Below, piece by piece: positions 30,426 to 53,422 of a stretch of 64,000 nucleotides of DNA (positions within the stretch are counted from its first letter, which is position 1; every line of letters starts with the position of its first letter). The translations under genes were made by a program, and so were the position numbers. The notes below the pieces were generated by a model. It was not told where the DNA came from and searched no databases. It worked only from the letters and a program-made list of their open reading frames with translations. The stretch comes from Caulobacter sp. CCUG 60055 (GTDB lineage: Bacteria > Pseudomonadota > Alphaproteobacteria > Caulobacterales > Caulobacteraceae): contig NZ_PUIC01000013.1 in the NCBI RefSeq assembly GCF_022750545.1, positions 1 to 64,000 of the forward strand, written 5' to 3'.

Positions 30426-33713
<3,288 letters not shown>

Positions 33714-33763: not shown

Positions 33764-34012
33764 CTAGTCCCTGAAAGTAATAGGCGCGGTTCGCGCCGTC
33801 ATGCCGCCCGCTCTTGAGGCAGCACCGCTTGAAACGACCGTCCTGAGCCGCAAGGGCACAGGTCGTTTCGCCCGAGCTTTTCGATCAGTTCCTTGTCGCC
33901 GTGGACCACCCGGTCGCCGCGCTTGACGCGCGTTTCGGACGGGTAGGATTTGCGACGCTTAGAGGTGACCTCGAAAGCAGTCGAGGTCCTGGAAATCGCG
34001 TGGCTTGCGCAT
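33764..34012 (-). CDS. SEC-C zinc-binding small protein, readable only with three +1 shifts at TTT-C
   Basis: A very strong Shine-Dalgarno (AGGAGG, 34023-34018, five bases before ATG 34012) starts a frame [12 protein letters not shown]. After TGC the next codon is TTT followed by C, and this frame stops at TAA about five codons later. Skipping one T gives TTC and continues as [20 protein letters not shown], then [21 protein letters not shown] second in-frame TTT-C (near 33835) and a third (near 33775) behave the same way, yielding [20 protein letters not shown], then YFRD and a TAG stop at 33766-33764. The result is a normal 81-residue SEC-C protein (CPCGSG, RCC). It is either a recoded gene, a pseudogene, or a sequence with three errors. 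Confidence 0.68.
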
Positions 34013-34122
34013 GTCGGCCTCCTCTGGCTGGTGCGGGCCGCGCCAATAACCCTAGGGGGTTCGGGTTGTATAGACGGGACGCCCGCCCATCTTCGTGAAG
34101 ACCTCGCAGGGAGACGGACCGC

Positions 34123-34509
34123 ATGCCCAGCCGTGAACGCGTCCAGGACTTCATCGCCACCGTCGAATCCGGCCGGCATGTCGAGGCCATCGAGCAATTC
34201 TACGCCGAGGACGCCTCGATGCAGGAGAACCAGGCCCCGCCCCGGCGCGGCCGGCGCAACCTGATGGACGGCGAGCAGAAGGTGATGGAATCGTTCGAGG
34301 CCATCCACACCCGCCCGGCCGAGATCGTGCTGATCGACGGCGACCGCGTGGTGATCAACTGGGTGTTCGACTTCATCCTGGCCGACGGACGCCGGTTCAC
34401 CTTCGACGAGCTGGCCCTGCAGCTCTGGAGCGGCGACCGCATCGTCGAGGAGCGGTTCTATTACGATCCCGGACAGCGCCGCCCCGCCGCGCCGGCCCCC
34501 GGCGGCTGA
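34123..34509 (+). CDS. Nuclear transport factor 2 / SnoaL-like protein
   Basis: A 128-residue single-domain protein of the NTF2/SnoaL cone fold. The order is an N-terminal helix ([20 protein letters not shown]), the [14 protein letters not shown] strand entry, and beta strands [30 protein letters not shown] and [10 protein letters not shown]. Such proteins are small-molecule isomerases, hydrolases or binding proteins, and the active-site residues here do not fix the function. AGGGAGA precedes the ATG. It is divergent from the SEC-C gene and convergent with the TonB receptor gene. Confidence 0.85.
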
Positions 34510-53156: not shown

Positions 53157-53349
53157 CTGATCGCGCCCCTTCGGCGGGTGTTGGCGAATATCGCGATCAG
53201 TCAATTCGGGACGAGCGCCCCAGACCCGAAACATTCGCCTTACCGAGCGCAGCCAGAAGCGTTCTCACGGAGAAAATTCACGCAAGAATCGACATGCAAG
53301 CCGCAGACCGTTCAGGCGCCTGACTTCAGTGGAATGTTCGCAATCCCGG

Positions 53350-53422
53350 TAGGCCCGGCAGGACTCGAACCTGCAACCAGACCGTTATGAGCGGTCGGCT
53401 CTAACCATTGAGCTACGGGCCC
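53350..53422 (-). tRNA. tRNA-Ile (anticodon CAT, lysidine type)
   Basis: A complete 73-nt cloverleaf on the minus strand: acceptor GGGCCCG (53422-53416) pairs with CGGGCCT, the D arm is GCTCAATGGTTAGAGC, the anticodon loop is CTCATAA within CGACCGCTCATAACGGTC, and the T arm is GCAGGTTCGAGTCCTGC. The anticodon is CAT. The pattern (TAGCTC..TGGTTAGAGC, and a TGGTT variable region) is closer to tRNA-Ile2, which TilS modifies to lysidine to read AUA, than to Met tRNAs. CCA is not encoded (ACCG follows). Confidence 0.88.

Follow-up and report, generated by a model that had tools for sequence, protein, structure and literature searches.

An 81-residue SEC-C protein is divided among three reading frames in the window, the 64,000-nt stretch of Caulobacter sp. 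DNA analyzed here. Sequence comparisons indicate, with a probability that we put at about 0.87, that its gene is intact and belongs to a widespread family, not named before, of small SEC-C genes expressed via repeated programmed +1 frameshifting. Because relatives keep the need for shifts though the positions of the sites differ, the arrangement looks like deliberate, unusually stacked translational control and not like a broken gene.

Results

The gene occupies 33764..34012 on the minus strand, between carB (30426..33713, plus strand) and a small ORF (34123..34509, plus strand), and three +1 shifts connect its ATG at 34012 to the TAG (33764..33766) that ends the composite frame. The Shine-Dalgarno (SD) sequence AGGAGG, which the initial annotation had placed 5 nt before this ATG, is read directly on the minus strand at 34023..34018, and the start codon of the homologues is likewise preceded by an SD sequence in the same position. 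The annotated division of the SEC-C protein into three pieces in three frames was also reproduced from the sequence: without a shift at the first site, translation ends after 17 residues at a frame-0 TAA (33959..33961, minus strand), and frames +1 and +2 hold the rest of the protein. All three proposed TTT-C break sites are present, but the second begins at 33834, not 33835. On the minus strand, the sites are TGC-TTT-CGA (site 1, Phe13, 33973..33976), TCG-TTT-CAA (site 2, Phe60, 33831..33834), without whose shift the ribosome reaches a TGA at 33799..33801, and TAC-TTT-CAG (site 3, Phe79, 33773..33776), where the unshifted product gains a long tail. When each of the three TTTC is read as one Phe, the 81-residue protein MRKPRD...YYFRD results.

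The 19-residue SEC-C metal-binding motif (33813..33870, minus strand) spans site 2. It matches PF02810 at residues 48–65 with an E-value of 2.4e-9 and 37.3 bits against a cut-off of 20.4; outside this motif, no named Pfam or NCBIfam family and no PDB chain matched. The family protein is basic, about 81 residues long, with a conserved core SKRR...PSET.VKRG...EKLGR.D.CPCGS...FK.CC; homologues are 59–86% identical to the window protein, and the four cysteines are invariant or nearly so. Third codon positions change most in the composite frame, accounting for 57%, 48%, and 51% of the changes in residues 14–59, 61–69, and 71–78, respectively. Since this bias holds in every segment, the composite frame behaves as translated sequence.

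Elsewhere in the window, TTT is rare. Among 30 GC-rich ORFs it makes up 19 of the 495 Phe codons (3.8%), and in-frame TTT-Y occurs 17 times in 13,912 codons, as compared to three times in the 81 codons of the frameshifted gene. None of the TTT in these ORFs is followed by CGA, CAA, CAG, or a stop codon. All 17 TTT-Y are read without a shift, which does not fit a genome-wide alteration of decoding; the in-frame TTT-CCC in an acyltransferase ORF, pointed out in the initial annotation as needing no shift, is real. The sole tRNA gene in the window encodes tRNA-Met (CAT; 53348..53422, minus strand), and a special local tRNA was thus discarded as the cause of the shifts.

A translated search of relatives returned matches with the same split from further genera and families within the order; their DNA carries TTTC at the same two core positions, and one has an extra TCC-TTT-CCC site. 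Loci were collected from a scan of genome contigs, from genome searches in the class, the order, a planctomycete class, and the acidobacterial phylum, and from viral contigs. Of 112 distinct homologous loci that passed a frameshift-aware alignment, seven were excluded because they are decayed, truncated, or unclear (L031, L033, L066, L076, L110, L218, and L229). The other 105 genes form the usable set; owing to kinship among the sequences, counts over this set do not represent 105 independent events. The loci come from Alpha-, Beta-, and Gammaproteobacteria, Planctomycetota, Acidobacteriota, Verrucomicrobiota, Gemmatimonadota, and a thermoleophilian bin, and many belong to cultured isolates, including C. 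vibrioides OR37, Rhizobium pisi DSM 30132, Methylobacterium brachythecii DSM 24105, and Marinicella marina. Distribution is patchy, with matches (E <= 1e-10) in 7 of 386 genomes sampled from the class, one of them weak, and in 74 of 199 planctomycete genomes, where the match is clearly longer in about two thirds.

Adjacency to carB was seen in the window, in G008, and in C. vibrioides OR37 (L001, L006, and L038) but at no other locus, and the OR37 orthologue (L038), a comparison that the initial annotation had proposed, keeps all three TTTC sites. No Pfam family was found in more than two of 64 neighbors and orientation varies, arguing against an operon or a partner. The small ORF that diverges from the gene in the window (34123..34509, plus strand) resembles SnoaL/NTF2-like proteins by eye and is absent beside the frameshifted gene at other loci.

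Every gene in the usable set requires more than one shift: three in 91 genes, two in 13, and four in one. Starting from the SD-preceded start codon, no gene (0/105) reads through without a decoding rule, and no intact, shift-free version was found. The placement of the breaks does not depend on a preference for TTT; our first alignment applied a uniform penalty to any +1 step, and it already set the breaks at, or a few codons from, the same Phe residues. The single rule that an in-frame TTTY is read as one Phe opens 76 of 105 genes, as compared to five for the best other codon-plus-wobble word and none for −1 words. In nearly all 105 genes the best SD-preceded start is out of frame with the conserved core; the exceptions are members in which Phe13 is replaced, and for one of these, L070, the in-frame start is the one listed as alternative. 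Where Phe13 is replaced (L070, L117, and L129), the shift at 13 is absent. The frame break is kept in place and direction among orthologues, as in programmed +1 frameshifting, and at nearly all sites the P-site codon is able to re-pair in the +1 frame, UUU to UUY, with CCT, TCT, and a few others as exceptions.

The causes for which 29 genes are not opened by the TTTY rule include a planctomycete clade, unshifted TTT-CCN at residue 23, and T7C runs. In the planctomycete clade (L221–L227), a +1 step at residue 24/25 on CCT-GAG, CCT-CAG, CCC-CAG, or TCT-GAG replaces the Phe site; since CUG allows only poor re-pairing, a different mechanism may operate in this clade, possibly involving out-of-frame binding in the A site. 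TTT-CCN is shifted in some cases and unshifted in others, several genes being unshifted at residue 23. At site 1, T7C runs (CCA TTT TTT TCG AGA and similar; L167, L169, L170, L172, L173, L182, L210–L212, and L215) need two +1 steps, one +2 step, or one −1 step. A few genes use CTT-C, CTT-TGA (L172), or TCT-TGA (L146), and single odd breaks outside the UUU-Y rule occur in L030, L079, and L163.

After the 270 shifted TTT sites, the old frame continues with UGA at 74, CGA at 69, CAA at 45, UAG at 37, CAG at 12, and UAA at 2; thus, a stop codon, CGA, CAA, or CAG follows 239 of them. Stop codons account for 113 and follow none of the three sites in the window gene. Another 21 sites are listed with TTT next, mostly double-Phe runs in which the shift could equally be placed at the second TTT. 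Unshifted in-frame TTT-Y within family genes is followed by CCN or TTY only. In part, the A site holds a stop codon, CGA, CAA, or CAG because the residues after Phe are Glu, Asp, Lys, and Arg. A ribosome that does not slip at sites 13, 60, 70, and 79 stops after a median of 4, 10, 0, and 0 codons, respectively. The UUU-C slip motif of the initial annotation is too narrow: the base after UUU is C or U (UUU-Y), a stop codon often comes next, and positions vary by lineage.

Some sites also carry an SD-like element. Residue 60 is preceded by an SD-like tetramer in 27 of the 45 genes that shift there (41 of them at TTT-CAA) vs. 3 of 60 that do not, with about 10% at control positions; in the window gene, AGGA (33841..33844, minus strand) upstream of site 2 is a possible stimulator. 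The tetramer precedes site 70 in 22/69 cases against a general control of about 10%, and at this control level there is no enrichment at sites 13 (4/87) and 79 (5/66). A search for a stimulatory RNA structure in the window gene gave none that was significant (z = −0.9).

Along the gene tree, shift sites are gained and lost at positions 13, 23/25, 60, 70, and 79 while their count stays near three. Site 1 is present in 101 of 105 genes, and the common triplets are 13+70+79 (41 genes), 13+60+79 (23), 13+60+70 (10), and 13+25+70 (9). Placed on a nucleotide tree, the pattern at sites 60, 70, and 79 requires a minimum of 5, 10, and 11 changes, respectively; therefore, the sites moved while their number stayed near three. 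We rejected the idea that three shifts are favored because they amount to a full codon and leave a net-zero frame, which is broken by the T7C and two-site members.

Discussion

Conservation across phyla strongly supports the proposal that the interrupted reading frame is a genuine gene whose translation depends on +1 shifts at TTT-C Phe codons, and the recurrence of the same interruptions in homologues of other genera and phyla bears out the view that they are unlike random decay. We looked in relatives for TTC at these sites and for general decay, the two findings that would have spoken for an assembly error or a pseudogene, and found neither. If three random indels had destroyed an old SEC-C gene, a naive reading would give short ORFs only, as it does, and some copies have in fact decayed (L110 has an in-frame stop and lost cysteines; 7/112 loci were set aside for such reasons). 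However, homologues from several phyla have +1 insertions in common at matching Phe codons, which refutes this explanation for the family; identities of 59–86% to the window protein, the nearly always conserved cysteines, the third-position-biased change, and the lack of any intact shift-free version further make it extremely improbable. An error of sequencing or assembly would be suggested by extra T residues located in short T runs, yet runs of three are not of an error-prone length and the same sites appear in independent isolates as well as in metagenome bins, originating from many projects; we give this explanation practically no weight. The frame could instead be restored in the RNA, by transcriptional slippage or deletion of a U, and planctomycete members do carry longer T runs (T6-T7C). 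Slippage is typically selected against at nine-base runs (PMC1088944), far above the three T of each window site, and the tie to a frame-0 UUU codon and to SD-like stretches fits ribosomes better, so that restoration in the RNA is very unlikely.

A subtler alternative accepts the shifts as real and denies them a regulatory role: slippage at UUU-Y would be so efficient that an extra T has no selective effect, the situation proposed for Euplotes, in which frameshift sites are reported to build up neutrally (PMC10235951). Turnover of sites within the family is consistent with this idea. On the other hand, single-base deletions would restore the frame, yet 0/105 genes have fewer than two shifts and 91 keep three, and other window genes use in-frame TTT-Y without shifting. 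We consider neutrality unlikely and favor programmed frameshifting with a presumed regulatory role.

P-site slippage by tRNA-Phe is the best-supported mechanism because the precedents from Salmonella, influenza virus, and prfB match the codons at the sites. In Salmonella short of Gln-tRNA, protein sequencing established that wild-type tRNA-Phe undergoes a +1 slip from the P site at UUU-CAA (Bjork and colleagues; PMC3617221); tRNA-Pro slips at CCC-CAA, and P-site slippage is likewise induced when A37 of tRNA-Phe lacks its ms2 or ms2io6 groups (reviewed in PMC3617221). In influenza PA-X, a +1 shift of about 1% occurs at UCC_UUU_CGU, where tRNA-Phe presumably exchanges its pairing with UUU for UUC (PMC3498833), and prfB shifts at CUU-UGA with an SD-like element at about 53% in B. 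subtilis (PMC12421855). By analogy, UUU would occupy the P site while the next codon (CGA, CAA, CAG, or stop) is filled slowly; peptidyl-tRNA-Phe (anticodon GAA) would then move ahead by one base to pair with UUC or UUU, and translation would resume in the +1 frame. At site 2, the internal SD-like stretch probably aids the slip, as in prfB. The yield of full-length protein should scale with the product of about three slip efficiencies; therefore, we would expect a low basal level and a steep response to slippage-promoting states such as A-site starvation, low release factor, or under-modified tRNA-Phe. As a counterpoint, a PA-X-like 1% at each of three sites would yield almost no protein unless efficiency here is much higher.

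We find no support for the suggested sensitivity of the gene to the supply of Phe-tRNA: at such sites, the P site is already occupied by tRNA-Phe. For this reason, A-site occupancy (Gln/Arg tRNA, release factors) or modification of tRNA-Phe is the likelier variable, and a Phe-tRNA-supply sensor ranks below the A-site and tRNA-modification models.

The function of the protein can be approached by analogy with other SEC-C proteins (the SecA tail, YecA, and YchJ), with which it shares the CxC-x8-CC metal-binding motif in basic surroundings; in contrast to these, the 81-residue window protein stands alone. The SecA tail, which carries the same motif, binds 70S ribosomes, and its proposed ligand is iron (PMC6620043). 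The family protein may likewise bind ribosomes, and feedback on translation is plausible; we can reasonably infer, rather than report as a result, that it is a metalloprotein associated with ribosomes and that stacked slippage gates its synthesis. A tentative extension, which we think has less than an even chance of being correct, is a multi-site recoding sensor whose output would follow roughly the cube of the slippage rate: the metalloprotein would be made when P-site tRNA-Phe is slippery or A sites are empty, e.g. upon iron limitation that leaves tRNA-Phe ms2-deficient or a shortage of Gln/Arg tRNA or release factor, and would then restore frame fidelity or protect stalled ribosomes, in a feedback loop analogous to that of RF2.

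Programmed +1 frameshifting itself is already known, and each precedent differs from the SEC-C family. Like the family, prfB employs +1 P-site slippage on YUU, often before a stop codon, with an SD-like stimulator as at residue 60 (27/45), and L172 even uses CTT-TGA; however, prfB contains a single site (CUU-UGA-C, accompanied by an AGGGGG element), whereas the family has two to four UUU sites, often with a sense codon (CGA, CAA, CAG) in the A site, and its sites 13 and 79 lack SD enrichment. Site 1 reads UCC UUU CGA in many members, resembling PA-X down to the UUU to UUC re-pairing of tRNA-Phe, but PA-X belongs to a eukaryotic virus in which a single, optional shift of ~1% adds an alternative tail, while the SEC-C family needs all of its shifts. 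The Salmonella UUU-CAA pair is identical to site 2 and the planctomycete CCC-CAG resembles CCC-CAA; those slips were observed with an artificial reporter in tRNA-Gln mutants, whereas the sites described here are natural and conserved. Euplotes shares several +1 shifts within one gene, yet its shifts occur at stop codons genome-wide and involve altered termination; here, a single family shifts in hosts that otherwise read UUU-Y normally.

We know of no cellular gene described as obligately needing several independent +1 shifts within fewer than 90 codons and kept across phyla. The literature searched, with preprints and most subscription journals outside its scope, yielded no paper pairing 'SEC-C motif' with 'frameshift' and no report of obligate serial +1 shifts in one small bacterial gene at positions that change across phyla; the family is not mentioned in the examined text of the main GeneTack survey. 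UUU-Y would thus be able to serve as a recurrent bacterial +1 site, and the family links a natural gene to the UUU-CAA slip, which until now was observed with artificial reporters. Genes of this kind would escape ordinary gene finders. Dozens of natural variants lend themselves to dissecting what makes a P-site tRNA slip, and a site number held near three makes cooperative recoding directly testable.

In plasmid and phage collections, apart from other matches to the SEC-C motif, copies were present only on two Candidatus Manganitrophus plasmids (L110 and L111, 4850–5250), where the gene is decayed, with an in-frame stop, lost cysteines, and no annotated CDS; it lies between an integrase gene and a SIR2 family/ATP-binding pair resembling a SIR2-HerA defence system. 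Three IMG/VR contigs classed as viral (L127, L128, and L129; 66, 24, and 533 kb) carry intact-looking copies with two or three shifts.
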